A DNA stretch of 35,941 nt from a virus. The notes below the pieces were generated by a model, which was not told where the DNA came from, did no database searches, and saw only the letters and a list, made by a program, of their open reading frames with translations. Each line of letters opens with the position of its first letter. Position 1 is the stretch's first letter. A program made the position numbers and the translations under genes. The stretch is taken from positions 1 to 35,941 of the IMG/VR virus record IMGVR_UViG_3300024308_000154. The stretch is one strand, 5' to 3'. Positions 1,862 to 27,448 of this stretch are shown here, one piece after another.

Positions 1862-1877
1862 GGTCGGAATCCCGACC
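1862..1877 (-). promoter_or_regulatory. Late dyad element 1 (upstream of capsid)
   Basis: GGTCGGAATCCCGACC, a 6-bp inverted repeat around AATC. It lies between the terminator after the scaffold gene and the capsid start, 150 bp upstream of the ATG. It is one of five copies in the window. Read on the transcribed strand it is GGTCGG-GATT-CCGACC. Function is inferred; see findings. Confidence 0.7.
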
Positions 1878-1883
1878 AAATGA

Positions 1884-1910
1884 AAAAGCCAGCGGTTCAG
1901 GCTGGCTTTT
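1884..1910 (-). terminator. Terminator after the scaffold gene
   Basis: AAAAGCCAGC (1884-1893) pairs perfectly with GCTGGCTTTT (1901-1910) around a 7-base loop, and on the minus strand it ends in TTTTTC. It lies 21 bases after the scaffold stop and just before late dyad element 1. It could work in both directions. Confidence 0.8.
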
Positions 1911-1930
1911 GGTGTTGTCGTCGTGACATG

Positions 1931-2767
1931 TCACGCTACGGTTTGATCGCCGTAACGCTTCTGGTAATACGCTTTGACCGTCGCTGATACGCGTTCATGG
2001 TCGGCGTGTTTCGGGTCCATATATGCCGGGGATTTCATCAGGTCGCGAATGCTCTGCTGCTCTTCGAGGTTCACATCGCCGCCCGCCGGCGCATCTTCCT
2101 GCATTTCCGCGCCTACTTTTGCCAGCATGCGAATAACCATCGGATTATTGCCGATCTCGTCAATGCGGCCTTTGTCGGCGTCGTCAGCCAGCGAGTTAAA
2201 CGCGCGGAAAGCCAGACCGATGTTTTGCTTAAACTCCGCGTCGGTTTTCCACACCTCGCGCAGCTGAGTGGTGGCGGACTCAGAATCCAGCGCTGCGGCA
2301 CCACCAACCAGCTCAGGAGCACGCTGCGCGTATTCACCCAGGATGAAGCTCATCTGGTCGTTGGTGATACCTTTGGCGTGCGCAGTTTTCATAAAGCTCT
2401 GCATGCGCGGGTCGGCTTTGAATTCTTCCCAGTTAAATCCCTCGACCTCTACCTTAGGCGCATACTCATCTGACGTTTTCGGCGGTGCGTCGCCGCTGCC
2501 CATGCGTTTTTCAATGTGAGTGTAACTTTCCGCCAGTTTGCGGGCAGAGCTTTCAATACTGAGTTTTCCGTCTTCGCCCATAACGCGGAATTTCTCAGGT
2601 AGCCAGTCATTCGCACCCTGTTCGCCCGCGCCGGTGCTGAGCAGAGAATTGCCAGAAGGTTCACCAGCACCCGGATTATTGCCGCCATCTTCACCACCTC
2701 CGTTACCCCCGCCCGGCTGTTCTGCGCCGGGCTCAGCGTTCATGAATAAGTGTTTAAGCTTCCACAT
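1931..2767 (-). CDS. Scaffold / capsid assembly protein (T7 gp9-like)
   Basis: The 278-residue product sits between portal and capsid genes, where T7-type phages encode the scaffold that guides procapsid assembly and is then released. Composition fits: a Gly/Glu/Asn-rich low-complexity N-terminus (residues about 10-45), then mostly charged helical sequence, including NDWLPEKFRVMGEDGKLS and RKLAESYTHIEKRMG, a pattern common in phage scaffolds. No membrane segment or catalytic motif is visible. The ATG at 2767 has GGAG upstream and overlaps the end of the preceding small gene by 14 bases, implying coupled translation. The function is assigned from position and composition; a minor head protein is the main alternative. 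Confidence 0.82.
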   Translation of the reverse strand: MWKLKHLFMNAEPGAEQPGGGNGGGEDGGNNPGAGEPSGNSLLSTGAGEQGANDWLPEKFRVMGEDGKLSIESSARKLAESYTHIEKRMGSGDAPPKTSDEYAPKVEVEGFNWEEFKADPRMQSFMKTAHAKGITNDQMSFILGEYAQRAPELVGGAAALDSESATTQLREVWKTDAEFKQNIGLAFRAFNSLADDADKGRIDEIGNNPMVIRMLAKVGAEMQEDAPAGGDVNLEEQQSIRDLMKSPAYMDPKHADHERVSATVKAYYQKRYGDQTVA

Positions 2768-2987
2768 CGTCTTCTACTCCATCGGCCTTGTTGATTTCGC
2801 GCAGGATGTAATCCAGTACGGATCGCTGCCCTGCCCTGTAACACGTTTCGCGGTCGCCCTCGGTACCACCGGGGACGTACGCCGCGCGCCCGAAGCGGCG
2901 CGTTAATTCTTCCAGCACCTGAGAACCACCAGGCATTTCCTCGAAAATGCGCTTAAAGTCCTGAGGTGTAGCCTGTTTTATTCTCAT
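2754..2987 (-). CDS. Bbp19-like small phage protein
   Basis: The 77-residue protein begins MRIKQATPQDFKRIFEEMPG and continues with VLEELTRRFGRAAYVPGG and CYRAGQRSVLDYILREIN. This arrangement (FKRIF, GSQVLEELTRRF, GQRSVLDYI) resembles the Bbp19 family named from Bordetella phage BPP-1, whose role is not known to me. It is encoded between portal and scaffold genes, as in other T7-like and BPP-1-like structural modules. Its ATG overlaps the portal stop (ATGA), and its own 3' end overlaps the scaffold start. It is probably a small virion or assembly factor made at a level linked to portal and scaffold. Confidence 0.72.
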   Translation of the reverse strand: MRIKQATPQDFKRIFEEMPGGSQVLEELTRRFGRAAYVPGGTEGDRETCYRAGQRSVLDYILREINKADGVEDDVEA

Positions 2988-4609
2988 TGGTTACCTGCCA
3001 GTCGTTGCCCTATTGCCGCGCCAGCTGTCTGCCCTGCGGCCCCAGCTGCCTCGGTGCCCGCCTGCATCATGAGCTGCTGCTGTGCGGCCTGCTGCTGTGT
3101 TTTCTGGCGCTGGTCGCGGAGGTCTGCCACCGCATCGGATGAGCGCATGACCTTCGCCGGTACGCCTAACGCTTCGCCCACTACGCGGCTGGCTTCATCG
3201 CTGTCCATGTTGTCCAGTATGTCGGGGTATGCCTGCGCCAACTGCATGATGTTCTGGCCATAACGCTCGATTGCCGTGACGTCTTCCAGCTTCTGGGCGC
3301 GTGCCAGAGGCGAGATGTAACGTACGTTGAAATTGGCGTTCTGCAGGCTCTCAGGCGGCGGGGAGAAAATGCCAGCGCGGAAAGCGATGCCAAAACAGCG
3401 CACAACCAGCAACTGGAGATATTCAGCCTGGAACCGGCCATACACCGGACCAAGCAGCTGGCGAATCAGCGCGACGCGCACGTGCACTTCGGTGGCGGTC
3501 ATGGCTGGCCCGTCCTGCGGCTGCAGTTGGTCGGCCATCATGATTTTGCGGATTGATGCCTGCAGGCGATCTTCTGCGGTAAATGCGACCTGGAAATCTG
3601 CACCGGTCAGCAACGGTTTCATGCTTTCGGTGCTGTTCGCCACGATGATGCGACGCGGACCGACCTTGACCGTACGCGGGTTGAGTACGCCGTCGTCTTC
3701 GGCAATCCACATGCCGGAGATAGCCAGATCCTGCGCGGCTTTCTCCATGCGTTTGGTTTCGTTCAGCTCTTTGCAGTCTGGCAGAGCATCGTATACCGGG
3801 CCGATTCCGTAGGAGCCGCCGGGGATTTTCATCCAGCGCGGAACGCAGCACGGGAATTCGTGATAGCCGGATTCGCGCACAATCTGCTTGTTGCTCACGT
3901 CGACGTTGTACGACGCAAAGCGCATGTTTTTCGCCAGGCGGGCGTTAACCATGTAGGTTTCACGCGGGAAAATGCAGTGCAGGAAATCAAATTTATCGTC
4001 GGGCTTTTTCTTCGCTGCGTCGCGGATCTTCTCGCTGACCTTGTCCGCGCCGAACTCTTTGATGGCCTGCTCAGCAGTCAGCTGGTAGCGGCGGTATATC
4101 GTGTCCACGATGCCATCCTTGCGGGTGGACGTGACATAGCACTGCGCCAGCGGCCATTGCTGGAAGGTGTAGCCGCCCTCCTCCCGGTCCTCGTCGATGT
4201 ACAGGACGAACCAGCCAGCGCATACCACGTCGAGGTTTGCCTCATAGCCCTCGGCGTCGAAGTTAGCCGCATGGATATTTTCCCATACCAGCGTGGCGCA
4301 CTCAGACAGCCAGGCTTTGGCGTCGTCTGGCAGCGATTCGCTGTCGAGGTTCAGCCACTGCGCGTTTGCCGGAGTCATGCCGGACATGAGCGCAGAGGCC
4401 AGCATGCGGGCGCTGTCGGTGGCGGTACCGTCCAGTAGCTTCGCCACCTTGTGTTTTGCACTCTGAGCGTCGAGCACTTCGTCAGAGAATCCCGCGCCGC
4501 GCAGCGGATAGGTGTAGTCATAGCACTCGCGCCAGACGCTTTCATGCTGCTGGCGGTTGGCTTTCAGCGTGTCGGAACGCTTAATCAGCTTAACGGCGAG
4601 TTCATCCAT
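2984..4609 (-). CDS. Portal (head-tail connector) protein, T7 gp8-like
   Basis: The 541-residue product matches the length of T7-type head-tail connectors (T7 gp8 is about 536 residues). Twelve copies of such proteins form the ring through which DNA enters and leaves the head. Typical segments are the N-terminal LIKRSDTLKANRQQHESVWRE with YDYTYPLR, DGTATDSARMLASALMSGMT around residues 57-77, and EVHVRVALIRQLLGPVYGRFQ in the second half. The C-terminus is Gln/Ala-rich (QQQAAQQQLMMQAG), with predicted coiled or disordered character. The start at 4609 lies three bases after the preceding stop. It is followed by an overlapping Bbp19-like gene and the scaffold gene. Confidence 0.92.
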   Translation of the reverse strand: MDELAVKLIKRSDTLKANRQQHESVWRECYDYTYPLRGAGFSDEVLDAQSAKHKVAKLLDGTATDSARMLASALMSGMTPANAQWLNLDSESLPDDAKAWLSECATLVWENIHAANFDAEGYEANLDVVCAGWFVLYIDEDREEGGYTFQQWPLAQCYVTSTRKDGIVDTIYRRYQLTAEQAIKEFGADKVSEKIRDAAKKKPDDKFDFLHCIFPRETYMVNARLAKNMRFASYNVDVSNKQIVRESGYHEFPCCVPRWMKIPGGSYGIGPVYDALPDCKELNETKRMEKAAQDLAISGMWIAEDDGVLNPRTVKVGPRRIIVANSTESMKPLLTGADFQVAFTAEDRLQASIRKIMMADQLQPQDGPAMTATEVHVRVALIRQLLGPVYGRFQAEYLQLLVVRCFGIAFRAGIFSPPPESLQNANFNVRYISPLARAQKLEDVTAIERYGQNIMQLAQAYPDILDNMDSDEASRVVGEALGVPAKVMRSSDAVADLRDQRQKTQQQAAQQQLMMQAGTEAAGAAGQTAGAAIGQRLAGNQ

Positions 4610-4612
4610 CAG

Positions 4613-4843
4613 TTACGCCCCCAGAGTATTTTTCTGCTGCGCTGCCTGCGCACCAGAGGACAGCAGAGAGCTGCCAGAATCAGCCGCGCCCTCTGCACCA
4701 CTGGCGAGAAGGGACGAGCCTTTCTTGCGCTTCTTGCGCGCTGCTGCATCTGCGTTTGCCGCTTTTGCCGCTGCATCGGCAGCTGCATCCGCTTCGGCCT
4801 GCGGGTCGGTCTGTACGACCTTTGGCGCTCCGCCTCCACACAT
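4613..4843 (-). CDS. Small Cys/Gly-start, Ala-rich phage protein of unknown function
   Basis: The 76-residue product begins MCGGGAPKVVQTDP, continues as an Ala/Asp-rich helical stretch and a basic patch (RKKRKKG), and ends with two related SSLL motifs (KGSSLLASGAEG and SGSSLLSSGAQ) before KNTLGA. Small proteins with MC-Gly starts and GSSLL repeats are common next to head or tail genes in tailed phages, but I cannot name a confirmed function. The ATG at 4843 has an AGAGGGGG ribosome site. It lies directly upstream of the portal gene with a three-base gap. A positional role as a small virion or tail assembly protein is possible but unproven. Confidence 0.7.
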   Translation of the reverse strand: MCGGGAPKVVQTDPQAEADAAADAAAKAANADAAARKKRKKGSSLLASGAEGAADSGSSLLSSGAQAAQQKNTLGA

Positions 4844-4857
4844 AACGATTCCCCCTC

Positions 4858-5301
4858 TTAGCCCGGAACGTGCCAGCCGTGTTCAGTCAGAACGGGCTTA
4901 CCCGTAACCGGCTGGCGTTTGCCCTCGTCGTTCGTCACGTAGCCCAGCGGCGCGGCAGGCTCCGCCGTGGTGGCTTTTTTAACGAGCTGGAGGAATTCGA
5001 GATTGTCGGTCAGCTGCTGGTCAGCAAGGTCGGTGTAACCCAGCGTTTCAAAGCGGGCGATGATGGCCGCGCCCTGCTCGTTGATGGTCCCCAGCAGAGT
5101 ATTGCGCGCGGTGGGTAACAACGCTTCTTCGCTGGCCTGAGGCTCCTCAACGGTGATTACCTGCTGCTCTGCGCGCTGACCGTCAGCGTTAAGCGTCTGG
5201 ATCTCAGTCGCGGTAAGGCGGTGCTCTGCGTCCGTCTGCTGTTCTGCGCCCGTTTCAGGCTCCTGCCCTGGTACTTCGACGGTTTTCTTTGGTCGGCCCA
5301 T
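4858..5301 (-). CDS. Conserved phage protein at the head of the late operon, unknown function
   Basis: The 147-residue product begins MGRPKKTVEVPGQEP, a short basic AT-hook-like start. It continues as a Glu/Gln-rich, probably disordered region to about residue 60, then a helical part (TLLGTINEQGAAIIARFETL, LTDNLEFLQLVKKA) and a C-terminal GYVTNDEGKRQPVTGKPVL segment. No enzyme motif is visible. I chose ATG 5301 because AGGAG lies upstream. The frame extends to 5367, but that extension reads through late dyad element 2 and is not coding. As the first gene of the portal-capsid block it may be a head decoration or assembly protein. Confidence 0.65.
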   Translation of the reverse strand: MGRPKKTVEVPGQEPETGAEQQTDAEHRLTATEIQTLNADGQRAEQQVITVEEPQASEEALLPTARNTLLGTINEQGAAIIARFETLGYTDLADQQLTDNLEFLQLVKKATTAEPAAPLGYVTNDEGKRQPVTGKPVLTEHGWHVPG

Positions 5302-5349
5302 TGTGTTGGCTCCTGTGATGATTGAGCCGTAAGTGTGAAACGGGGTCGC

Positions 5350-5365
5350 GGTCGGGATCCCGACC
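5350..5365 (-). promoter_or_regulatory. Late dyad element 2 (start of the late operon)
   Basis: GGTCGGGATCCCGACC, the only fully palindromic copy of the five. It lies 48 bp upstream of the first late gene (5301). Its upstream flank on the minus strand (CATTT) matches that of element 1. Confidence 0.7.
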
Positions 5366-5376
5366 AAATGGAAGAT

Positions 5377-5406
5377 TTGTTAAAAACAGGGCCGATTTAA
5401 CATAAT
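5377..5406 (+). promoter_or_regulatory. Candidate sigma70 promoter reading away from the late operon
   Basis: TTGTTA (5377-5382), an 18-bp spacer and CATAAT (5401-5406) on the plus strand. No convincing plus-strand gene follows; a transcript would run antisense into the small HTH gene. It may be a chance match. Confidence 0.25.
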
Positions 5407-5518
5407 GGACGTTGCGCGCACCAGCGAAATGGCACTCGTTAACGATTCAGCGTGAAGCGGTTATTTGTTGCGGTTTACTGGCGGGAAGTGGTGAAAATGG
5501 ACTGCATAAATCGTGCAT

Positions 5519-5569
5519 AAAACAGGGCGGTTTTTGCATAGCGCTTTTAACCGATGAACGCCCTGTTTC
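5519..5569 (-). terminator. Long-stem terminator-like inverted repeat after the small HTH gene
   Basis: AAACAGGGCG (5519-5528) and CGCCCTGTTT (5560-5569) form a perfect 10-bp stem around 31 bases, and the loop has its own GGTT/AACC pairing. On the minus strand it lies 10 bases after the HTH stop and ends in TTTTATG. It probably separates the early leftward transcript from the late operon and could act in both directions. Confidence 0.5.
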
Positions 5570-5578
5570 TGCAAGTTT

Positions 5579-5854
5579 TCATGGTGCCAGACGCTTCGAT
5601 CGCCAGGCGTACACAAAGCGCCGTGATGTAACCTGCGCAGGCAGTTCAGAGCGCGGGCGCTGTGTGACGTAGCACCAGAAATCTATCAACGCTTCGCCCG
5701 TGTGATGGTTCGGCGCTGCGCCCTGCTTCCAGCCGATGATAGCAGACTTCGATACGTCGAGCTCTCTGGCAATCTCCTGCAGGGGGATGCCGCTGCGCGT
5801 GATGTCGTTAATCACCCGGAACCAGTCTGTTTTGAACGTTGCGACAACTGGCAT
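5579..5854 (-). CDS. Small helix-turn-helix protein, candidate late or replication regulator
   Basis: The 91-residue product contains a clear helix-turn-helix at about residues 24-46 (GIPLQEIARELDVSKSAIIG followed by WKQG), and a C-terminal RFVYAWRSKRL basic tail. It belongs to the broad XRE-like group of short phage regulators and has no cleavage or dimerisation domain of the CI type. The ATG at 5854 has a GAGGTGA ribosome site. It is the last leftward gene before the late operon and lies between the 9-bp repeat cluster (5990-6163) and late dyad element 2 (5350-5365). On context it is the best candidate to bind one of these repeats. Direct evidence for its target is absent. Confidence 0.72.
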   Translation of the reverse strand: MPVVATFKTDWFRVINDITRSGIPLQEIARELDVSKSAIIGWKQGAAPNHHTGEALIDFWCYVTQRPRSELPAQVTSRRFVYAWRSKRLAP

Positions 5855-5857
5855 GGG

Positions 5858-5956
5858 TCACCTCGCAAAACGCGCGCACGCGCGAGCATAGAGAGCGATT
5901 TTATTGAGCTTCTGGCGCTCGTTAATCGCCGTGGTGGAATCAAATCGTATTTGCAT
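5858..5956 (-). CDS. Possible 32-residue protein upstream of the HTH gene
   Basis: A short frame starts at ATG 5956 (GAG seven bases upstream) and ends in a TGA placed three bases before the HTH gene's ATG. The product begins MQIRFDSTTAINERQK and continues as a basic helix (LNKIALYARACARFAR). Its tight coupling to the next gene argues for translation. The size is too small for any statistical support, and I know no family for it. It may be a leader peptide. Confidence 0.35.
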   Translation of the reverse strand: MQIRFDSTTAINERQKLNKIALYARACARFAR

Positions 5957-5970
5957 ATCGCTACTCGCAA

Positions 5971-6163
5971 TAAATTACATGTTCATTGCTAGACCACCTG
6001 TGACCACCTAGACCACTATTTTCTAACCTTTCCCCAAATCGACTTATATATATATATGGGGTTATTAGTAAAAAGGTGGTCTAGGTGGTCTAGGTTGGCT
6101 TTCGCCTTAAATTACAGTACGTTGCCGCTAGACCACCAAACTAGCTCAGGTGGTCTAGGTGGT
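5971..6163. repeat. Cluster of TAGACCACC / GGTGGTCTA 9-bp repeats around an AT tract: candidate replication origin
   Basis: Forward copies TAGACCACC lie at 5990-5998 and 6129-6137, with a variant TAGACCACT at 6009-6017. Inverted copies GGTGGTCTA lie at 6075-6083, 6084-6092 and 6149-6157, and partial units at 6001-6008 and 6158-6163. A (TA)n tract occupies 6045-6057. Two of the units sit inside longer imperfect direct repeats (5971-5998 and 6108-6137), both starting TAAATTACA. The array is next to the 3' end of the primase-helicase gene and contains no convincing gene. An iteron-type origin is the leading interpretation; an operator array for the adjacent HTH protein is the alternative. Confidence 0.6.
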
Positions 6164-8332
6164 ACTAGTTTTTACCCAAACGCGTATCTGTTTACCGTTT
6201 ACAAAGCGCCTATCTCGCAAATACCCGCAGTTTTGCAAAACATTACCGATTCGCATTTCTTCGCGTTTTCCAATATTGCGAGAATCGAGCCCAATCGCTT
6301 CTTTCAACACGTCACTAGTTAGTAAAAATTCGCAGTTTCGCGGAATGTCGTTAGTCATCAGGTCAGGAGTGTCGAGCCATTTCTCTACCGTTTCGAGCCA
6401 CGCGTCCTTAATGGTGTACTGCTCGTGGACACTCGCACCGAGGCGCTCAGCATCGCGGAACTGGATGCCGCCGAGGCGCTTAAACGTCTCGCGGGCCTCA
6501 GCCCACAGCAAAAGGAGGTCGGTTTTTATCGCTTTCACGTCGACTTTCGACACCTCCACGGGCAACCACCGGCGGTTACCGGTCTTGTCGGCGAGGAATT
6601 CGTCCTCGTTGGTGGTACCGACGAACACCAGGCGACGCGGGAACTGGGTAGCGAACTCCCGGTATTTAGGGATCCAGTTCTCATGCGTGCGCGTCACGAA
6701 TGCCTTGATGGATTCGAGCTCTTTGGTATTAAGGCCGCGCAGCTCGCCAATCTCCGCCACCAGGCGACCGCGCATCTTGCGTGCGAGGTCATCGTCTTTC
6801 TCAGCGAACGATATCTCAGTGAAGAACGCCGGGTCGGGGCTCAGCGCTTCCACGCCGGAGGACTTCCCGCAGCCCTGAGGACCGACGAGGATCGGCACCA
6901 TATCAGCTTTGACACCGGGCTCCAGCACCCTGCCCGCCAGCGCCGTCCACATGTACATGGACACCGCGCGGGTGTATGGCGTGTCGGCGGTACCGAAGTG
7001 CGTATGGTAGAAAGTTTCGATACGCGGCACGCCGTCCCACTCCAGCCCGTTAAGCCAGGTGGTCGCCGAGTCGAAAGGCTGTTCGTCAGCGGCCAGCAGC
7101 ACCACGTCGCGTATCAGCTCACGCCCGACAGGCTTAAAGCCTCGCTTTTCCATCGTGATGCGCAGGCGCGCATAGTCCGCATCGGTGAACGCCTGCCACT
7201 GGCCGGAGCCAGCCTGGGCGAACATGATTTCGTCGCGGAACTGGTCAAAGCGAATATCGATGTCCACGAAGTCAGGACGCACAACGGCTTTGGCCGCGTT
7301 GCTGATGGTGGCCTCGATGCGGCCCCATTTGTCGCGTTCGAACGCCGGCAGCGGTAAAGGCTCAGCCACTTCGGTGCTGGTCAGGTCTTCGAAATCGTCG
7401 TTGCGGGTCCCGATGGCATTAAGGAAATCGCCGTCATCGCGGTGTGCACAGCTGGCGTGCAGGCACTTGAAATGGCCCTGCTCAAAGCCCGCGGTACCGC
7501 CCGGGAAGTAAACCGTGCTCGTCGGGTCGCCGCCGGTGCTGTGGCCGTCTTCGAACGGGCAGCGGATATAACGCTCGCCGTTCGTGCCGTCCAGCAGCGT
7601 CCAGCCGTTCGCGTCGAGGTATTCGGCTGTATCATCCGTGGCGCCGGGTGTGAACGTTGAGCGGTCGCGCATCTTCGTGCTACCCGCTTCGGTGGTGACC
7701 GACACAGGCAACTGTTCCGCCAGTCGCTGCCACAGAGTTTCGAGCTGGTCAGCAGTTATGGCTGGGGGCTCGTCCGGCAGACCGCCGTCCCATTCAATAC
7801 GCGCGCCGCTGCTGTGTGTACCGCAGGCAACGAATTGTTGGCCGTTGGCCAGCAGCTCGATAATCCCCATATCGCCCGCCAGACGGTGGATGCGCTTACG
7901 GAAATCACCCTCTACGGCGAGCAGGTACAGGCATTTGTTGCTGTTGGCGCGCCAGCGACGCGGCGGCAACTCGCCAAGCAGCTGCACCAGCGTTTTGCGA
8001 ATATCGGCCTGGATGTCTTCGTCTTCGCTGTCGCAGTCCAGCGCCAGCCAGCCATGACCAGTGCGCACACAGATGCCGTAATCCGGTTCGTTCGACCAGC
8101 GGGCAAAGTCATGCTCAGTAACGACATGCTCGGTCCACTGAGCAATGCCGGTGGCCAGTCGGTCGCGGTTATAGAGGCTCGGCGTCTTGCCCAGCGCTTT
8201 CAATTTACTATTCGGGGATATGGTCGCACCCGGGTTGCACACGACCGGCAGCAGCTGGTCAGTGCGCCCCAGCACCAGATCGAAGTGGAACCATTCGTCA
8301 GGCGTCGCCCCCCAGATCTTTTTCTCTGGCAT
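6155..8332 (-). CDS. Primase-helicase: prim-pol N-terminus fused to a VapE-type SF3 helicase
   Basis: The 725-residue protein has two parts. Residues 1-200 form a bifunctional primase/polymerase domain with the acidic pair in LALDCDSED (about 97-105) and a later GTHSSGARIEW. A Cys/His segment (about 258-297: RCPFEDGH, HFKCLHASCAHR) looks metal binding. The C-terminal half is a VapE/D5-like helicase: WDGVPRIETF, Walker A GPQGCGKSS (484-492), Walker B LVAEIGEL (about 524) and motif C VFVGTTNEDEF (569-579), followed by NRRWLPVEV. It should load at the origin, unwind and prime. It is read leftward three bases after the Cro-like gene. Its 3' end includes one unit of the 9-bp repeats. Confidence 0.9.
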   Translation of the reverse strand: MPEKKIWGATPDEWFHFDLVLGRTDQLLPVVCNPGATISPNSKLKALGKTPSLYNRDRLATGIAQWTEHVVTEHDFARWSNEPDYGICVRTGHGWLALDCDSEDEDIQADIRKTLVQLLGELPPRRWRANSNKCLYLLAVEGDFRKRIHRLAGDMGIIELLANGQQFVACGTHSSGARIEWDGGLPDEPPAITADQLETLWQRLAEQLPVSVTTEAGSTKMRDRSTFTPGATDDTAEYLDANGWTLLDGTNGERYIRCPFEDGHSTGGDPTSTVYFPGGTAGFEQGHFKCLHASCAHRDDGDFLNAIGTRNDDFEDLTSTEVAEPLPLPAFERDKWGRIEATISNAAKAVVRPDFVDIDIRFDQFRDEIMFAQAGSGQWQAFTDADYARLRITMEKRGFKPVGRELIRDVVLLAADEQPFDSATTWLNGLEWDGVPRIETFYHTHFGTADTPYTRAVSMYMWTALAGRVLEPGVKADMVPILVGPQGCGKSSGVEALSPDPAFFTEISFAEKDDDLARKMRGRLVAEIGELRGLNTKELESIKAFVTRTHENWIPKYREFATQFPRRLVFVGTTNEDEFLADKTGNRRWLPVEVSKVDVKAIKTDLLLLWAEARETFKRLGGIQFRDAERLGASVHEQYTIKDAWLETVEKWLDTPDLMTNDIPRNCEFLLTSDVLKEAIGLDSRNIGKREEMRIGNVLQNCGYLRDRRFVNGKQIRVWVKTSTT

Positions 8333-8335
8333 GGG

Positions 8336-8548
8336 TTACGCCTTTTTGTCGTTTTGTGAGCCGTGCAACAGCCAGTTAGGGTCGCAATCAAGCGCAACGG
8401 ATAATTCAAGAAGATAGCGAGGCCGAGAAATAACACCGCTTTCGATCCTGTTGATGGCCTGCTGACTAACCCCTGTTAGCTCAGCCAGCGTGACCTGCGT
8501 CATTTTGAGCTCTTTACGTCGCTCTTTTAATCGGGTAGCCAGAGTCAT
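8336..8548 (-). CDS. Cro-like XRE-family regulator
   Basis: The 70-residue product is a single HTH_3 domain: RLKERRKELKMTQVTLAELT, then GVSQQAINRIESG, RYLLELSVALDCDPNWLLHG. It shows clear relatedness to the N-terminal domain of the divergently encoded CI (both share GVSQQ.I..IESG and LL.L..AL.C.P.WLL.G), as expected for a Cro/CI pair binding the same operators. The start at 8548 has GAGG eight bases upstream; an alternative ATG at 8566 overlaps operator sequence and lacks a ribosome site. It is the first gene of the leftward early operon, directly before the primase-helicase. It probably represses cI and trims early transcription. Confidence 0.85.
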   Translation of the reverse strand: MTLATRLKERRKELKMTQVTLAELTGVSQQAINRIESGVISRPRYLLELSVALDCDPNWLLHGSQNDKKA

Positions 8549-8558
8549 AGTTATCACC

Positions 8559-8580
8559 TCATACAATTTTAGTGGTATTT
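8559..8580. promoter_or_regulatory. CI/Cro operator OL1-like
   Basis: Half-sites CATACAA and TGGTATTT flank a 6-bp spacer (TTTTAG), the same geometry as the better copy at 8604-8625. The site overlaps the -10 of the leftward promoter. Confidence 0.7.
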
Positions 8581-8605
8581 AGCAACAACTAATGATGTTT
8601 GTCAA
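8576..8605 (-). promoter_or_regulatory. Leftward early promoter (cro-like and primase-helicase genes)
   Basis: On the minus strand a perfect TTGACA (complement of 8600-8605) is followed by an 18-bp spacer and TAAATA (complement of 8576-8581). It lies upstream of the Cro-like gene, and the two operators overlap its -10 and -35, the expected layout for repression by CI. Confidence 0.7.
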
Positions 8606-8625
8606 ATACAACAAAAATTGTATTT
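8604..8625. promoter_or_regulatory. CI/Cro operator OL2-like (perfect inverted repeat)
   Basis: AAATACAA (8604-8611) and TTGTATTT (8618-8625) are exact inverted repeats around CAAAAA. It overlaps the leftward -35 and lies in front of the cI gene, so it may also set cI autoregulation. Confidence 0.8.
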
Positions 8626-8668
8626 AATAATAGGAGGTCATAATTTCAACTCTTACAAGGTATTAAAA

Positions 8669-9292
8669 ATGTCTCTCGCAGCACGCTTCAAAGCCCGCCG
8701 TATCGAACTCGGAATGACACAAACAGAAGTCGCAAACTCTGCGGGAGTTAGCCAGCAATCAATTGAGTCTATAGAAAGCGGACGTACCCGAAAGCCACGT
8801 AACCTTCTCGATCTGGCTAAGGCGCTGAAATGCAGCCCGGACTGGCTATTGAACGGTAAAAACATAATGCCGCTCGCTGAAATCAGCACCAGAAGAATCC
8901 CTGTTTTGAGTTACGTACAAGCGGGTTGTCTCACTGAAGCAAGAGACGTTACTGACCTGACAGGAGAGCTTGAATATGTTCTGGCTGATGCAGACGTACC
9001 TGAAACGTGCTTCGCTCTTCGCATCGATGGCGACAGCATGCAACCGGAGTTTAAAGAAGGCGATATCGTTATTATCGATCCGGACCTGTGCCCTACCCCA
9101 GGAGAATTCGTGGTTGCCAAGAACGGCGGCCATGAGGCCACATTTAAAAAATACCGCCCGTTGGGTGTAGGTGTTGATGACTTCGAACTGGTTCCGCTTA
9201 ACCCAGACTATCCTGTTTTGCGCAGTGCTGACATGAAGTTACAGATCATTGGTGTCATGATCGAGCACCGCATTTACCGCCGTAAACGCTAA
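8669..9292 (+). CDS. cI: CI-type lysogeny repressor with LexA-like self-cleavage domain
   Basis: The 207-residue protein has an N-terminal HTH (residues 5-62: MTQTEVANSAGVSQQSIESI and SPDWLLNG) and a C-terminal S24/LexA peptidase domain. The predicted cleavage bond is Ala85-Gly86 in VQAGC. The catalytic Ser is Ser123 in GDSMQPEF, and the Lys is Lys160 in ATFKKY, 37 residues later as in LexA. Induction by the host SOS response (RecA-stimulated cleavage) is therefore expected. The start at 8669 has AAGG eight bases upstream; an upstream TTG at 8618 would read through an operator. It is flanked by related operators on both sides, controlling the leftward and the rightward early operons. Confidence 0.93.
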   Translation: MSLAARFKARRIELGMTQTEVANSAGVSQQSIESIESGRTRKPRNLLDLAKALKCSPDWLLNGKNIMPLAEISTRRIPVLSYVQAGCLTEARDVTDLTGELEYVLADADVPETCFALRIDGDSMQPEFKEGDIVIIDPDLCPTPGEFVVAKNGGHEATFKKYRPLGVGVDDFELVPLNPDYPVLRSADMKLQIIGVMIEHRIYRRKR

Positions 9293-9338
9293 AACCCCAC
9301 CTCCGCTGGAGGGCTCTGCTGCCCTCCTCGCACCTATC

Positions 9339-9416
9339 TTGTAAAATCTTACAAACTAAATTCATTTAAATATCAATAACGTGGTATTTTTGCGCCCACA
9401 AATACCACATTTGTGG
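9339..9416. repeat. Group of small inverted repeats after cI
   Basis: TTGTAA-AATC-TTACAA (9339-9354); GTGGTATTT (9381-9389) facing AAATACCAC (9400-9408); and CCACAAAT-ACCAC-ATTTGTGG (9396-9416). They lie just upstream of the rightward early promoter, and some share half-site sequence (GGTATTT/AAATACC) with the CI operators. They may be weaker repressor sites. Confidence 0.45.
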
Positions 9417-9445: not shown

Positions 9446-9462
9446 TAATCCCAAGAAGTAAT

Positions 9463-9730: not shown

Positions 9731-9742
9731 GGAGCACTACCG

Positions 9743-18846: not shown

Positions 18847-18849
18847 AGG

Positions 18850-19094: not shown

Positions 19095-19129
19095 TGTTGA
19101 TTTCGCTCCCGATTGAGGAACAAAACACG

Positions 19130-20131: not shown

Positions 20132-20348
20132 TATCTCGGGCCTCTTTTCGGCGATCGTCTTTGATTTTGAAATACAGGTTGGTCAGGTAAGTCAGTAAAC
20201 CAAAGAGAATACTGGCAAGTACGCCAATAGCAGCCCACTGGCTAGGGCTTACTTTATCGAGAAGTTGCAGCAGCCAGTAACCAAAGCTGCCTATAGATGT
20301 GCCGTACGATAGCCCCGCAGCTACGTCTGAAAGGTTGTTCATCCTCAT
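20112..20348 (-). CDS. Pinholin (phage 21 S-like) with dual start
   Basis: The 78-residue product contains [20 protein letters not shown] and [20 protein letters not shown], then [20 protein letters not shown]. This closely resembles the phage 21 S holin, with two transmembrane segments. The N-terminus is Met-Arg-Met, giving two possible starts (20348 and 20342) separated by a basic residue. In S21 the start MKSM yields antiholin and holin forms in the same way. Pinholins open small channels that dissipate membrane potential, releasing the SAR endolysin encoded next. A copy of the late dyad lies 55 bp upstream. Confidence 0.9.
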
Positions 20349-20403
20349 GCCTCACCCCCTGTGGGGAAAATCTTGTAGTGAGCTGAGAGTAAGCGTGGAG
20401 AGC

Positions 20404-20419
20404 GGTCGGAATCCCGACC
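20404..20419 (-). promoter_or_regulatory. Late dyad element 3 (upstream of lysis genes)
   Basis: GGTCGGAATCCCGACC lies 55 bp before the pinholin start, in the divergent region shared with gtrA. It immediately follows a promoter-like TATATG on the minus strand, so it would cover the transcription start. Confidence 0.7.
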
Positions 20420-20447
20420 ATATAGAGGTGGTCGATTAGATTAACAA
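20419..20447 (-). promoter_or_regulatory. Candidate lysis promoter
   Basis: On the minus strand TTGTTA (complement of 20442-20447), a 17-bp spacer and TATATG (complement of 20419-20424). The late dyad 20404-20419 begins at the -10 and covers the predicted start site. Confidence 0.45.
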
Positions 20448-20491
20448 CAAGTGCTAAACTTCAGACCTTTCCGAATTCACTGATTTCTATA

Positions 20492-20854
20492 ATGTTAAAG
20501 TTATTCGCCAGGTACACATCGATAGGTGTCATCAATACGCTCATCCACTGGGTGGTGTTTGCCATTTGTATTTACGTTTTCTTTACAGGTCAGGCCCTGG
20601 CTAACTTCGCTGGATTTGTTGTCGCTGTATCATTCAGCTTCTTTGCAAATGCCCGATTCACCTTCAAGTCTTCTACAACGACTATGCGCTATATGCTTTA
20701 TGTCGGGTTTATGGGCTCCCTGAGCGCTGCAGTTGGTTGGGCTGCGGATAAGTCTGGTCTGGCACCTATCATCACTTTAATTCTGTTCTCCGCCATCAGT
20801 CTGGTGTGCGGCTTTATCTATTCAAAGTTCATTGTCTTTAGGGATGCGAAATGA
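20492..20854 (+). CDS. gtrA: GtrA-type bactoprenol-linked glucose flippase
   Basis: The 120-residue protein has four predicted transmembrane helices ([20 protein letters not shown]; the segment starting [45 protein letters not shown]) and the GtrA family end SKFIVFRD. GtrA flips undecaprenyl-phosphate-glucose to the periplasm for O-antigen modification. It overlaps gtrB by four bases. The ATG at 20492 overlaps a TATAAT (20488-20493), and no clear ribosome site precedes it, so the exact start or the promoter is uncertain. Confidence 0.92.
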
Positions 20855-21771
20855 AAATTTCTCTGGTCGTTCCGGTGTTTAATGAAGAGGAAGCAATTCC
20901 AATCTTCTATAAAACGGTTCGTGAGTTTGAGGCATTACAGCAACATGAAGTCGAAATCGTCTTCATCAATGACGGCAGCAAAGACGCCACAGAATCAATT
21001 ATTAACGCGCTTGCTATTGCTGATCCGCTTGTGGTTCCACTGTCGTTCACTCGTAACTTTGGAAAAGAGCCTGCTCTCTTCGCCGGTCTTGACCATGCTA
21101 CCGGTGAAGCGATTATCCCGATCGATGTAGACTTACAGGACCCTATCGAAGTCATTCCTCATCTGATAGAGAAATGGCAGGCCGGTGCTGATATGGTTCT
21201 GGCTAAACGCTCTGATCGCTCTACAGATGGCAGACTGAAGCGCAAGACCGCTGAATGGTTCTATAAGCTGCACAACAAAATCAGCAACCCTCAAATTGAG
21301 GAAAACGTTGGTGACTTTCGTCTGATGTCTCGCGACGTTGTCGAAAACATTAAGCTCATGCCAGAACGAAACCTGTTCATGAAGGGCGTTTTGAGCTGGG
21401 TTGGCGGTCGTACTGATGTAGTGGAATATGCCCGAGCAGAACGTGTTGCAGGCAGCACAAAATTCAACGGTTGGAAGTTGTGGAACCTTGCCCTTGAGGG
21501 GATCACGAGCTTCTCAACCTTCCCTCTGCGGATGTGGACGTATATCGGCCTGTTTGTTGCCGGCGCTGCATTCCTGTACGGTGCGTGGATGATTTTCGAC
21601 ACTCTGGTGTTTGGAAATGCTGTTAGAGGGTATCCGTCACTTCTTGTTTCTGTGCTATTTCTTGGGGGTATTCAATTAATTGGAATTGGAGTTCTCGGGG
21701 AGTATATCGGAAGGATTTATGTTGAAGTCAAGAAAAGACCTAGATACGTACTGAAAGGCAAAAAACAATGA
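20851..21771 (+). CDS. gtrB: GtrB-type bactoprenol glucosyltransferase
   Basis: The 306-residue protein starts [20 protein letters not shown] and carries the GT2 family features [26 protein letters not shown] and DVDLQDP (the metal and UDP-glucose site, about residues 91-97). It ends with two transmembrane helices ([18 protein letters not shown] and [20 protein letters not shown]). It transfers glucose from UDP-glucose to undecaprenyl phosphate on the cytoplasmic face. Its start overlaps the gtrA stop, and its stop overlaps the next gene, giving one conversion operon. Confidence 0.94.
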
Positions 21772-23249
21772 TTAGCAAATCTTTTTTATGGACTTATCGA
21801 TGGTCATTACTGGCCGCTGCTTTCACGTCTCTTCTTTATATTTTACCATTTATTGTTCATGAAAATTACATAATTGATGACTGGCTTCGATCTGATACTG
21901 GCGTTACAGCTTGGGAAGATAACGCCAGACCTCTTGCCAGTGTGATTATGTGGCTATTCTCCCTCAGTACGTCTGGATTCAGGTTCTTTGGTGACGGGGT
22001 TCTGCTGGACACTTTCCCATTCACTTTGATAGCGTCAACATTTTGCATTGTTCTTGCTGCATTGATTGTCGTAGAGAGGATTTCTATACGTTCAAATGTT
22101 CTTGTTGCAATTTCATCGATTTCTCTTCTAACAAGTCCTTTTTGGATCGGGAACATGCTATTCAGACATGACTCATTCATCATGGGTCTCTCTGCATTGT
22201 CTGCTGTTTGTTTTTCAATTGTTCTTTTAAACTCCGGGCCAAAGAGATATTTTTGGGGTGTAGCATTAGGATTTGTGGTTTTTACTACATACCAGGCATC
22301 AGTTAACGTCATATTCTCAACGATGTTATTGATAATATGCTCTAACTTATATTCTGGAGAGCATGTCAAAAAGCAGGCCCCTTATGTTATAAGGTGCGCT
22401 ATTTCACTGATTATTTCCGCAGTACTTTATAAACTATGTGTGAAGCATGTTATATCCCTAAGTGAGTATACTCAAAGCCACGAAAGCCTGGTGTCTTTCG
22501 ATATGAATGGCCTTAAACGGATCGGAGAGAATTCAAGTAACTTCTATGCCATATTCAGAGATGCGATGAAGGGATTCAATGGCGTTGTCACTTGGGTAGT
22601 TATGTCTGCATCTATTGTTCTTGGAGTCTTCCTGTCAAAAAGGCGCGGGCTAAACTTGCCATCAGTAATTGTGATCACAATCACTCCAGTAGCGCTTTTC
22701 TCATTAACGGCTGGGATAATGCTTATCTTGCAAAATCCAGTCGCATCCTCCCGCGTCATGATCGCCTTTGGGTTCGTATTAATTTATTTTTGCTGGTTGC
22801 TGGATAAATACCCATTCAGGTTAAAGATGATATTACCGGTTACTTTAGTGCTTTGCTCATTCTCGTTGTCATCTACAGTGTCTGGTGTTGTAAATGACAT
22901 GCAAAGGCTTGATAGATTTGTCGCGTCCTATGCAGCAGAAAAACTGTATGAAAATGGTTACAAAAAGGGAATGAAGGTGTACATCTTTGGTGGACCTTCA
23001 TATCCACCAAGCGTGGAAAGATCACTTTCAGCCAGACCATTCCTCAAAGACTTTGTTTACTCTTCTTTTGCAAATGGAAGATTCAAACACAGTCTCATGA
23101 AACAATACGGGATCATCTCATCACCTCCTTCAGGGCAGGACTTTTGGGACAGGGACAGGAGGATGAATTCCAGCACGGTTGTTTATTCTGACAGACTGAT
23201 CATGATCTATCGCTTAAAGGATGAAATGGGATTTAGGGTTTTGAAGTGA
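21768..23249 (+). CDS. GtrC-like serotype-specific O-antigen glucosyltransferase
   Basis: The 493-residue polytopic protein has about nine to eleven hydrophobic helices and, near the start, [13 protein letters not shown], whose acidic pair is typical of the GtrII (Glucos_trans_II) family. [14 protein letters not shown] follows, then [12 protein letters not shown]. The last ~110 residues form a periplasmic domain ([20 protein letters not shown]). These enzymes attach glucose from the flipped lipid carrier to a specific O-antigen sugar. It is the third gene of the gtr operon and is visibly more AT-rich than flanking genes, consistent with replacement by horizontal transfer. Which sugar and linkage it makes cannot be read from the sequence. 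Confidence 0.85.
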
Positions 23250-23252
23250 AAC

Positions 23253-23274
23253 AAAGGCCGGTTTTCCGGCCTTT
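23253..23274. terminator. Bidirectional terminator between the gtr cassette and the tailspike
   Basis: AAAGGCCGG-TTTT-CCGGCCTTT is a perfect 9-bp stem with flanking A and T runs, placed between the converging gtrC-like stop (23249) and tailspike stop (23279). Confidence 0.85.
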
Positions 23275-23278
23275 ATTA

Positions 23279-25417
23279 CTATGAGTGTAACCTTATATCA
23301 GCACTAACGATAGATGAACCCAAAGGAACAAGTACGCCGCTCCCATTATAGAATCTAAGTATCAGATTTTTACTGGATATTTCAGGGAGAATTACCAAAC
23401 CTGCAACACTAGCAGGGGTGACTGTGCATTTTCGCACAGCATCAGCGGTAACATGTGGTTTGAATGAAACTGTTAATTCACCAGTGCCAGTTGCAGATAC
23501 AGTGCTTATCAATGATTCTGTATCCGTAGTTGTGACCGTTCCGTTAGCGCTAACAATTCGAGCAAACCTCTCCCAGTTAACTGTAAGATCAGTGACATTA
23601 TCAAGGCCAACGAATGGCGCACGGGCGGTGTCGATGTTAAACACTTTAATATTACTATTGCTCCCCATAAAGCGTATTAAGGCTGCGCCTGAAGCATTCC
23701 CAGCCGAAACAAAGTCCTTGATTCCATCGAATGTGACATTAAACGCACCAGAAGCTACAAGGATGGGGTTTGCACTGCCGTGACTTTTAATACGGGTATT
23801 AGTGAAATAACTGTCACGGCACGTAACAGCTAGTGCATGAAGACGCACGGACGCAGGAGTTACACCTGACTTTACCTCCCCCTCAAATGTATAATTGTCT
23901 ACACGCAGACCAACTACAGTGTTAGGCTGCCCATCAACTCCACCTGAGATGCCATATACAGCATTATCGTCATACTGAATTATTTTCATATGACCGTTGC
24001 GTATTTGAAGGTCCTGAATGACACCGTTCTGTGCGTTAAGGCCAAATCCACCATTAGAACCAGCGACATTAAATCCATCAATCATGCAACGGTTACTTCT
24101 GCGAATGACGCCCGCGGGCATGTTTCTATTATCAATATCAGCATAGCGTGCCACTATATTTTTGATAATGATGTCTTCACAAATGTTGCCTGACGCATCT
24201 AAGGAAATGTAGAAAGCATGACGGCCTAAATCTCCATCTTCAGCACTGGCTCGGAAATTAATTCCATCAATCAACCCACGAGAGCTACCTCCTAACAGCA
24301 CTCCATAGCCACCTGCCGCTACATTATCGTGGTAGCGCATGTTACGGGCATAAACATCTCTTACAACAAAATCAGAACAACGCAGAAGCTCCATAGAGCC
24401 ACTGAACTGTTTCGCGTCAAGTCCTAGAATTTTAAAGTTTTCGCTGTCTTCTAACTGTATACCATAGGCCACATTGCCAGTGGATGGCCCATTAACAATA
24501 TTGCCGATGATGCGTAAGTTTCGGATAGTGAATCCTTTCTTGAATTCTGAATGTACAGCCCTCGCAACTGCGGTCATAGTTAAACTGCCACCTACACCGT
24601 CCACAACCTGATAATCTGTTGGTAATATTGGGCTGGAACGTAAATATGTTTTTTCAATTTCTACGTCCTGACCATTGGCCAGAACTGCTGAAACTGAATC
24701 GCCATACCCACTAGGCCTGCGGTCGATAGCATCGAGGTCGAGTTGAACGGTGCCGCGATGGCTGCTGCCGATCTTCTCCGCCCCGGTAGGCTTTGCCAGC
24801 TCAATCATCACGTCCGAAGCAGAACCTGATGCAGGTAAAACAGCTATCGGACTTCCGCTATCGTTGAAGGCCAGCAAACGGTTTGCTCGTTGAGAAACCG
24901 GGGGCAGAACAGGTACGTAAGATTCAGGAACACGAAGCGCGCGTACCAGGCTGACGTTATCGACATAATTCTTTGTCGCGGCATCCTGCGCATTCAACGG
25001 GTCGGCGAGTTTTTCAATACGGTACCCTTCTGCGTTAAACGGGCCACCCAACAAAGGTCGACGCAAAGCAAGACCGAGATAGATAAACGAGCGCTGAATT
25101 GCCATCCACAGACGATCAAAATCTTTGTTAACTGTATCAGCCAACAGGTCACCGTTGTCCTGGTAATCCGTTAGTCGATAAGTCGGTACGACGCGCTCCA
25201 GCATGACAATCGAGCCGCTGGCTGGTGGAGTAATAAATGTCACATCCCCACCGCCGACGTTTCCGGTCCCTGAAACGCTGTACCCGCTGGTTACCGTTGT
25301 GCCGTTGATGGACACCTGGATATCACCGGCGTTGATGATGTAGAACTCGAAAGGAAAAACAGTCGTCAGACCGTTGGCGTTATAAATAATATAGGGCGTC
25401 TGGTTAGGTACCGACAT
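23279..25417 (-). CDS. Tailspike with T7-fibre-like N-terminus and beta-helix body
   Basis: The 712-residue protein begins with a T7 tail-fibre-type head-binding domain (residues 1-150: TPYIIYNANGLTTVFPFEFY, GDVTFITPPASGSIVMLERV, and DFDRLWMAIQRSFIYLGLAL). It continues with a linker, then a long right-handed beta-helix-type region (about 250-600) with repeated short segments such as KGFTIRNLRIIGNIVNG, FKILGLDAKQFSG and CEDIIIKNIVARY. Such spikes bind and often cut surface polysaccharide. No catalytic residues can be named with certainty. The ATG at 25417 has AGAGG upstream, 20 bases after the terminase stop. The adjoining gtr cassette may alter the very receptor this protein uses. Confidence 0.88.
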   Translation of the reverse strand: MSVPNQTPYIIYNANGLTTVFPFEFYIINAGDIQVSINGTTVTSGYSVSGTGNVGGGDVTFITPPASGSIVMLERVVPTYRLTDYQDNGDLLADTVNKDFDRLWMAIQRSFIYLGLALRRPLLGGPFNAEGYRIEKLADPLNAQDAATKNYVDNVSLVRALRVPESYVPVLPPVSQRANRLLAFNDSGSPIAVLPASGSASDVMIELAKPTGAEKIGSSHRGTVQLDLDAIDRRPSGYGDSVSAVLANGQDVEIEKTYLRSSPILPTDYQVVDGVGGSLTMTAVARAVHSEFKKGFTIRNLRIIGNIVNGPSTGNVAYGIQLEDSENFKILGLDAKQFSGSMELLRCSDFVVRDVYARNMRYHDNVAAGGYGVLLGGSSRGLIDGINFRASAEDGDLGRHAFYISLDASGNICEDIIIKNIVARYADIDNRNMPAGVIRRSNRCMIDGFNVAGSNGGFGLNAQNGVIQDLQIRNGHMKIIQYDDNAVYGISGGVDGQPNTVVGLRVDNYTFEGEVKSGVTPASVRLHALAVTCRDSYFTNTRIKSHGSANPILVASGAFNVTFDGIKDFVSAGNASGAALIRFMGSNSNIKVFNIDTARAPFVGLDNVTDLTVNWERFARIVSANGTVTTTDTESLISTVSATGTGELTVSFKPHVTADAVRKCTVTPASVAGLVILPEISSKNLILRFYNGSGVLVPLGSSIVSADIRLHS

Positions 25418-25437
25418 GATGCGAAACCTCTGGCGGG

Positions 25438-27048
25438 TTAATAATCGACGTTGACCAGATGATCTCCGTCACTTAACTGCCAATCTTCGCGCGCATGCCC
25501 GGTCGGAATCCCGACCACTTTCCCGATACGTACAGGGGTCTGACTTATTGCACCTGCGCCGGAATCAATGAAATCGTCTGGCTGGTTAGTCAGAGCCGGA
25601 TTAAAGTCGCGCATCTGGTCATAAACAGGTCCATCAAGCACGTCGGTATGCGCCCACAGGAACCGTGAAGACAGCGGCGCTTCAAACGCATCAAGGATGC
25701 GTTTCTGCTTATTGGTAATGCTGAACTCTTCCCGGACGCCACAGCCCGTCCCCTTGAGCGCCTGACGCAACAACTTCCCGGCGAAGCTGCCGGGTCCGTT
25801 TACTTCTACACAGACAACCGGTATCTGGTATTTGAGCACCAGTTCTTTTATCTGTGCGACCTGCCCGCCGGTGATTTTGTCATTGTCGTCAAATTCAGCC
25901 AGCTCCCCGGTTAGCTCCTGGCAAATGTGCCAGTACAGGTGGCCACGCGCGTCGGTAAGCATCAGAGAGAACGCCGAAGCATCGGCCTTAACTTTGCCTG
26001 TGGCCACGTCCCACCAGGCGACGGCGCCAACGATTTGCACGTTACCTAGCCAGAGCGAGGCGGTACGGTTCGCATAGCGAATCTGTGGGTGGATGTTGTA
26101 CTCGCGGATGCGGTCAGGATCGAGACGAACGTCACCCACAGGTTTACTGTGCAGCTGATACTGGCTATCCCACTCGTTTATCGTTCGTGTTTCTTTGCGG
26201 CGATTCTCCATCTCCTCGCGCGTGAATCGCTCAGGCCAGGCGCAATCAGCATAAAAATCAATAACGGTATCGGGCGCGGTGGCAAACTCAACGCCGCTGG
26301 CCGTAAATTTGTAGTCGACATCCTCGATCAGCAAACGGGCGCTTTTATGGATTCCGGCGAAAACATATTCCGGCCTGAAAGATAACTTGTAGTGCAGCTG
26401 GGTGGCGTCTTTCGCCTCGATGCGTTTTTCTTTCTCAAACAGCCGGATTGTAAGACAGTCAGCGCCCATAGACTCCACCTCGTCATAAAGGCTGTCATGC
26501 GTGTGCGGCGTACCAATGTAGAGTTTGCGGCCGCCCGGGATCAGAATGTGCGTTTGCTCACCCAGGCGATAGCGCAGCTTTTCACGCGCCTCCGGCGTCT
26601 GGATATTACGGGGTACCTCTACATCATCGTTCTGGCATTCGTTGGCGCGGGCAGAGGTAACGTTAGACAGAATGCCTTTGGCGTACATACTGCCATTACG
26701 TAAATCGAGCGCACCATTGACCCACCACTGCTCTACCGTGCCCTGCCCATCCGGTAGCATGCCTTTGGTCAGCGGATGGTTGCGCAGAACGTTCTGGGTA
26801 TCTCGGCTGGTTTTATACGCGGTACCGTCGGATTCCGACTGGTGCAAAATACGGTACTGACGGTCGCAGTAGTACCGCCAGGCATTATAGACTGCGAGGA
26901 TTGTTGATTTACCGAACCCACGGAAACAGCGAAGCACCGCGAGATTACCGCGATGCTCCAGCCAGTGGCAGGCCTTATAGTGGCAGTCCGGTACATTCCA
27001 CTGCATCCGTTCCGCCCACATGAGAAAGAAGGCGAGGAAGGAAATCAT
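25438..27048 (-). CDS. terL: Terminase large subunit (T7 gp19-like)
   Basis: The 536-residue packaging motor begins with an ATPase domain. The Walker A-like CFRGFGKST (41-49) corresponds to AFRGIGKS of T7 gp19. SNVTSARANECQNDDVEVPR (about 128-147) corresponds to the Walker B region of gp19, and YIGTPHTHDSLYDE to its coupling motif. A C-terminal nuclease domain includes VAWWDVATGKVKADASAFSL and VCVEVNGPGSF. It cuts and translocates DNA into the procapsid through the portal. It overlaps terS by four bases. Its last 25 codons contain late dyad element 4, where the dyad encodes VGIPT. Confidence 0.92.
   Translation of the reverse strand: MISFLAFFLMWAERMQWNVPDCHYKACHWLEHRGNLAVLRCFRGFGKSTILAVYNAWRYYCDRQYRILHQSESDGTAYKTSRDTQNVLRNHPLTKGMLPDGQGTVEQWWVNGALDLRNGSMYAKGILSNVTSARANECQNDDVEVPRNIQTPEAREKLRYRLGEQTHILIPGGRKLYIGTPHTHDSLYDEVESMGADCLTIRLFEKEKRIEAKDATQLHYKLSFRPEYVFAGIHKSARLLIEDVDYKFTASGVEFATAPDTVIDFYADCAWPERFTREEMENRRKETRTINEWDSQYQLHSKPVGDVRLDPDRIREYNIHPQIRYANRTASLWLGNVQIVGAVAWWDVATGKVKADASAFSLMLTDARGHLYWHICQELTGELAEFDDNDKITGGQVAQIKELVLKYQIPVVCVEVNGPGSFAGKLLRQALKGTGCGVREEFSITNKQKRILDAFEAPLSSRFLWAHTDVLDGPVYDQMRDFNPALTNQPDDFIDSGAGAISQTPVRIGKVVGIPTGHAREDWQLSDGDHLVNVDY
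25501..25516 (-). promoter_or_regulatory. Late dyad element 4 (within the terL 3' end, upstream of tailspike)
   Basis: GGTCGGAATCCCGACC inside the coding end of terL, 83 bp before the tailspike start. This is the only copy inside a gene; it is read in frame as VGIPT. Confidence 0.65.
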
Positions 27049-27386
27049 TTTTTCCCTTTCTGCAGGCGCTCAATAATTGCGGCGGCCTCTCGCTCGGCTT
27101 TCGATACCTGCTGACCCAGCGCAAAAGCTTCATCATCCTGCCCGGGGTTATCAGAAGGCGTACCGCCGCGCGTCTGCATACCGATAAGAGAATGCACTTT
27201 AATCAGCAGCGTCAGCGATGCTGCTGCGTTTTTCTTGTCCCAGTACCGGTCGCCGCGTTCGTCTTTGGTCAGCTCGCTAGGTTTCTTTCCTGCCCCCGGC
27301 CAGTTATCCGGATCGGCTTCTTCGAGCACCACGTCGGTGAGTTTGTCGCTCAGTGTGGTAAGGCGTGTTTTGTAATCCTGATGCAT
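27045..27386 (-). CDS. Probable terminase small subunit
   Basis: The 113-residue protein lies directly before and overlaps terL (ATGA), the standard place for the DNA-recognition subunit. It is charged and helical (TRLTTLSDKLTDVVLEEADP, DKKNAAASLTLLIKVHSLIG), with a C-terminal helix (KAEREAAAIIERLQKGKK) suited to oligomerisation or contact with TerL. No sequence motif proves the assignment. A terminator hairpin occupies the bases directly before its ATG (27387-27414), and late dyad element 5 lies 46 bp upstream, so its expression may need antitermination. Confidence 0.75.
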   Translation of the reverse strand: MHQDYKTRLTTLSDKLTDVVLEEADPDNWPGAGKKPSELTKDERGDRYWDKKNAAASLTLLIKVHSLIGMQTRGGTPSDNPGQDDEAFALGQQVSKAEREAAAIIERLQKGKK

Positions 27387-27414
27387 AAAAAAGCCCCGTA
27401 GTGAATACAGGGCT
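27387..27414 (-). terminator. Terminator immediately before terS
   Basis: On the minus strand AGCCCTGTA-TTCAC-TACGGGGCT (one G-U pair) is followed by TTTTTT and then the terS ATG. It lies downstream of late dyad element 5 and would block terS-terL transcription from upstream unless overcome. Confidence 0.75.
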
Positions 27415-27432
27415 ATGATGGAACAGTCCAGA

Positions 27433-27448
27433 GGTCGGAATCCCGACC
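27433..27448 (-). promoter_or_regulatory. Late dyad element 5 (upstream of terminase)
   Basis: GGTCGGAATCCCGACC starts two bases after the internal virion protein stop (27451-27453) on the minus strand and ends 46 bp before terS, with a terminator in between. Confidence 0.7.

Follow-up and report, generated by a model that had tools for sequence, protein, structure and literature searches.

A repeated, conserved dyad marks five probable activator-dependent late promoters in a temperate T7-like podovirus

The stretch of DNA analysed here (the window) comprises the 35,941 nucleotides of the IMG/VR virus record IMGVR_UViG_3300024308_000154 and belongs to a temperate T7-like podovirus. Family matches were found for CI-like and Cro-like regulators, a primase-helicase, a DNA polymerase, an integrase, T7-type portal, capsid and tail proteins, Rz-like spanins and an endolysin, while none of the main genes scanned matched a phage RNA polymerase, T7-like or other, or a sigma factor. 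A scan of the whole window finds five exact copies of a 16-bp dyad, at 1862-1877, 5350-5365, 20404-20419, 25501-25516 and 27433-27448. Read along late transcription, which uses the minus strand, four of them are GGTCGGGATTCCGACC and the one at 5350-5365 is the perfect palindrome GGTCGGGATCCCGACC, all having the form of an inverted repeat, GGTCGG-N4-CCGACC. It is clear that these copies exceed chance expectation: with up to three mismatches allowed, 10 occurrences are counted over both strands, compared with a mean of 0.65 and a maximum of 5 in 100 shuffles, and no site beyond the five is found in the window.

Each copy precedes a block of late genes. The dyad at 1862-1877 stands before the capsid gene (ATG at 1711), that at 5350-5365 before the first late gene (ATG at 5301) and directly 3' of the candidate regulatory gene described below, that at 20404-20419 before the pinholin gene of the lysis block (20348), that at 25501-25516 before the tailspike gene (25417), and that at 27433-27448 before the gene of the terminase small subunit (27386). 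The tailspike copy is coding, being read as VGIPT within the 3' end of terL, which encodes the large terminase subunit, and the terminase copy begins immediately past the stop codon of the gene at 27451-30339. A first-pass annotation of this DNA had reported the five dyads, their location ahead of these five blocks, the four copies in the same orientation with one perfect palindrome, and the lack of a T7-like RNA polymerase gene; all of this holds, the last among the main genes scanned.

The element is longer than first noted, the 16-mer being followed by 12 variable bases and then by a sigma70 -10 hexamer. In 45 non-redundant downstream contexts, clustered at 70% identity and still sharing ancestry between clusters, and with no position assumed beforehand, the mean -10 score peaks at a single offset, 12 nt past the dyad, where it reaches +1.0 against an average of -4.2 and a best value of -1.95 in 2000 shuffles; some of the clusters are chance coding matches, which weaken this signal and do not create it. 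Only two downstream columns carry more than 1 bit of information, an A at 13 and a T at 17, which correspond to -11A and -7T, found here at the fixed distance expected of an activator-dependent sigma70 promoter. The dyad itself spans -40 to -25, in place of the -35 box, and the sequence from -35 to -30 is GGATTC, an arrangement in which an operator overlaps a poor or absent -35. A consensus -35/-10 promoter scan around three of the sites found none, a TGn motif is present in none of the five promoters, and a short A/T-rich box, ATTT, lies 5' of the dyad. Given that a positioned -10 follows the dyad, each copy would be a promoter and, with neither a -35 box nor a TGn motif, these promoters should be silent by themselves.

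The hexamers, all on the minus strand, are AACAAT at 1844-1849 for the capsid promoter (12 nt past the dyad, predicted +1 near 1837), CACACT at 5332-5337 for the first late promoter (predicted +1 near 5325), TACTCT at 20386-20391 for the lysis promoter (near 20379), GAAGAT at 25483-25488 for the tailspike promoter (near 25476) and CATCAT at 27415-27420 for the terminase promoter (near 27408). A matrix of the full element has exactly five hits in the window, with 35-48 bits and the next unrelated score at 5.6. In Yersinia phage YeP4, the best annotated isolate among the relatives, it again finds exactly five, with 30-37 bits and the next at 4.5, and the same five blocks follow. For relatives the -10 part of this matrix is circular, as their sites had been pre-filtered for the A and the T, so that the position-free offset test is the unbiased one. 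A motif-free search recovered the same element family in the window and in YeP4, on the late strand only.

Eighty relatives were retrieved through the capsid, and whole-record searches covered 50 relatives; the relatives are not independent of one another, and IMG/VR records may be incomplete. The dyad before the capsid gene is kept in nearly all of the 80, often accompanied by dyads at other places, and in the oriented loci its orientation relative to late transcription is always the same. The dyads keep their places before the late blocks as far as YeP4, which is the conservation that the first-pass annotation had named as support for a functional element. Around the capsid dyad, median identity across relatives is 33% upstream and 62% downstream: terminators and unrelated sequence are freely exchanged on the upstream side, whereas the dyad and the -10 are retained. 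In the loci L006-L085, variable cargo or unrelated sequence separates the preceding late gene from the capsid dyad, with the junction exactly at the dyad.

The gene at 5579-5854, on the minus strand, encodes a 91-residue helix-turn-helix (HTH) protein (phrog_16553), which we propose as the late activator from its position, its co-occurrence with the dyad and its fold model. It closes the early operon and, in most relatives, lies directly 5' of the first dyad. A homologue was found in 49 of the 50 relatives, the match in the fiftieth being a CI-like repressor. The structure model (predicted local distance difference test, pLDDT, 86) has a Cro/CI-type fold with end strands, that is, a lambda-repressor-like helix bundle with a helix-turn-helix of the Cro/CI, XRE type, and its nearest solved folds include C.BclI, C.Esp1396I, SinR and P22 c2, with Foldseek E values against the PDB of 0.02 at best. 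Wherever the dyad is present, the recognition helix hardly varies. YeP4 and L083 (a different HTH subtype) have a common C15-to-A change at some of their dyads, which is too little to prove contact.

Homologues of the HTH protein outside the group, with other recognition helices, have no dyads nearby (L290 and L293); that of Candidatus Pantoea formicae (L290, 10001-10231) has the recognition helix VVASTLIGWK. Distant homologues also occur in BcepC6B, Acinetobacter phage TPWB-05 and Alcaligenes phage Piluca, where the same system was sought and rejected: no repeated dyad with a -10 was seen, and the motif-free search of these three phages returned no such family. A hand-written consensus probe for distant homologues gave weak matches only, pointed to Piluca and was otherwise unused. 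The early operon also encodes an ANR-family regulator (NF033650; 15246-15464, plus strand), which was ruled out as the regulator by its distribution, being found in only 19 of the 50 relatives.

Taken together, the five dyads are probably activator-dependent sigma70 late promoters with the 91-residue HTH protein as their activator. The start sites, the binding, the activation and the identity of the activator are what we infer from sequence comparison and a fold model. Expressed from the distal end of the early operon, the HTH protein would bind the dyad as a dimer and recruit the host sigma70 polymerase. The first late genes with the portal, the capsid and tail genes, the terminase, the tailspike and the lysis genes would be switched on together, and the HTH protein would fill the role that Q has in lambda. 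The first-pass suggestion of an operator for a dimeric regulator, with this protein as the candidate, gains support from the positioned -10, the conservation, the co-occurrence and the predicted fold. Nonetheless, several observations weigh against this interpretation. The co-occurrence of HTH protein and dyad lies among related phages and is partly synteny, the HTH protein of YeP4 is only 46% identical when compared with 72-79% for the products of neighbouring genes, the -10 hexamers are weak, and in one relative, G046, the five promoters are all intact although no HTH gene was detected.

The first-pass annotation had offered as its other possibility that the dyad acts as RNA, namely a hairpin with a 6-bp stem and a tetraloop in read-through transcripts, serving put-like antitermination or mRNA stability. 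The stem is perfect in the window, the orientation is fixed and a terminator lies between the dyad and the terminase gene, all of which would suit such a role. However, over 18 dyad variants the stem pairing is 85.2%, compared with 85.6% in shuffled columns, so the compensatory changes of a conserved stem, as in put/nut-type antitermination elements, are not seen. The mismatches A1-C16, G2-A15 and A5-C12 each break the stem in several variants, and in YeP4 the G2-A15 mismatch is present at four of the five dyads. The stem of the adjacent terminator at the terminase promoter, used as a positive control in the same kind of test, does covary in relatives (97.2% against 88.9%). This terminator hairpin, at 27392-27414 on the minus strand, starts at the base after the -10 hexamer. 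Its 5' arm is mostly upstream of the predicted start and, therefore, read-through from upstream should stop while new transcripts escape, a geometry that would support the placement of the start site. Its 3' arm, CGGGG, may also serve as a ribosome-binding site, with the gene starting right past the T run. Given that no covariation is found and that pairs are broken in YeP4, the hairpin was rejected on pair counting and is very unlikely. In addition, a dyad upstream of the positioned -10 would be outside the transcript, a terminator precedes the dyad at the capsid gene, and the hairpin leaves the -10 unexplained.

If the dyads are promoter operators, their binder could be a protein other than the HTH protein (CI-like, Cro-like, ANR-family or a host factor), or they could be sites of repression. 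The dyads of G046, the CI and Cro homologues that exist in these phages, and the fact that the pairing of HTH protein and dyad is itself deduced leave some room for this, which we nevertheless consider unlikely: the ANR protein was not found in 31 of the 50 relatives, CI and Cro of YeP4 are only 28% and 41% identical over short stretches and yet the dyads are kept, the homologues in L290 and L293 with other recognition helices go without nearby dyads, and a weak -10 on its own calls for an activator rather than a repressor. The complete change of upstream sequence between relatives, exactly at the capsid dyad, could also be taken to mean that the dyads are recombination or module-boundary sequences for cargo exchange. 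This is highly improbable, given that homologous exchange needs neither a -10 at fixed spacing, nor five conserved sites, nor a fixed orientation, and that a junction at the dyad is expected anyway if each dyad starts a transcription unit. That the late genes are T7-like, and that T7 uses its own polymerase, brings to mind promoters read by a polymerase or sigma factor of the phage itself; with no match to such a family among the main genes, and with -11A and -7T being a sigma70 pattern, the probability of this is close to nil.

The distribution of the HTH protein can be compared with that of the antiterminator Q. G046 is the sole relative lacking the HTH protein, and its early region is of the lambda type with a Q antiterminator (PF03589, E 1.6e-50). 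This Antiterm family occurs in one of the 50 relatives, G046, and in none of those bearing the HTH protein or in YeP4. In G046, Q may drive the late genes after a recent swap, or the record may be incomplete, or another factor may act at the dyads. L084/G046 (L296, L297) is a natural chimaera. Its late module is that of the present group, with the five dyads intact; attached to it are a lambda-type early region that encodes Q, lysis genes and a second small subunit of the terminase, and the HTH gene is absent. In the map of APSE, a repressor, a regulator and an ATPase closest to those of YeP4 are followed by Q and P22-like late genes (PMC8579659), which would be the reverse swap. Judged from these gene arrangements, the proposed HTH activator and Q seem to substitute for one another across mosaic phages.

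The closest parallel in placement is the CII-dependent lambda promoter pRE, which has AAGTAT at -12 to -7 and a very poor -35 match (PMC2613000). Its CII site, TTGC-N6-TTGC, ends 13 nt before AAGTAT, which puts the operator centre at -32.5, as for the dyads here. Both systems would have a small phage HTH activator (proposed in our case) and a 14-16 bp operator overlapping -35, with no -35 box. However, the CII site is a direct repeat while the dyad is an inverted one and so is not a CII operator, pRE has the TGn motif that the late promoters here lack, and CII promotes lysogeny whereas the HTH protein would turn on late genes. Homology to CII, suspected from a shared motif, was not supported: BLASTP of the HTH protein against lambda CII gave no match at E 100, no CII structure is among the 50 best fold matches, and a CII-like profile matched a few members of the HTH family weakly (best E 0.013).

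Lambda Q acts on the elongating polymerase from one late promoter. The HTH protein resembles it in its position at the end of the early operon and in its proposed output, late genes turned on, and differs in that five separate promoters with operators are present here. P2 Ogr is a zinc-finger protein with sites near -55, and Mu C belongs to the Mor type and acts at an operator unlike the one here. With these the present system would share a single phage activator, several late promoters, repeated dyads and the use of host polymerase, although no homologue of either type was seen among the genes scanned. Controller (C) proteins of restriction-modification systems, and likewise P22 c2, are small, have the Cro/CI fold and bind dyad operators as dimers; some are activators. 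They are among the closest solved folds of the HTH model, at Foldseek E values of only 0.02 or weaker, and differ in biological role and operators.

It is also possible, although we would lean slightly against it, that this is a separate solution to the control of late genes in temperate phages, in which a Cro/CI-fold activator in CII-like placement serves a lytic late programme organised as five self-starting blocks and can trade places, as a module, with lambda Q. If so, terminators adjacent to the promoter, or fused with it, would insulate some of the blocks, and cargo genes could be inserted between blocks with no silencing of late genes, which would explain the variable cargo found there. 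The main interpretation, for its part, offers a case in which two late-control modules, an activator and an antiterminator, seem to be exchanged between mosaic phages. It also names a likely late regulator for temperate T7-like podoviruses that have neither Q nor a phage RNA polymerase, in a protein so far annotated only as hypothetical protein (as in E. coli B379, WP_001619027.1) or "transcriptional repressor", and it provides testable start sites and an easy sequence criterion by which the late promoters of such prophages can be located. No paper with the 16-mer was found in the literature, in agreement with the first-pass statement that no described element with this sequence was known, and the YeP4 paper mentions no promoters. 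The set of probable late promoters with its common operator is real, conserved and apparently undescribed.

The earlier claim that no further copy of the dyad exists, which stands at up to three mismatches, is refined by a degenerate sixth dyad, GGCCGGGAAACCGATA, at 1745-1760 on the minus strand, which adjoins the capsid ribosome-binding site on its upstream side and is kept in relatives. There it reads GGCCGGGAAACCGACA (L299, 10745; L286, 21461), its conservation reaches YeP4, and in some relatives a good -10 (TAATAT) follows 12 nt downstream. Possible readings are a second promoter for the capsid gene and a copy that has decayed.

The two ends of the window, 1-160 and 35783-35941, carry a direct repeat of about 160 bp in nearly identical form, which suggests that the contig is complete and closes into a circle, with a small discrepancy. 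Relatives of this phage are common as prophages and were found in 3 of 5426 E. coli genomes. Between the tailspike and lysis promoters, on the opposite (plus) strand, lies an O-antigen glucosylation (gtr-type) cassette at 20492-23249, recognised by DNA matches to gtr genes.

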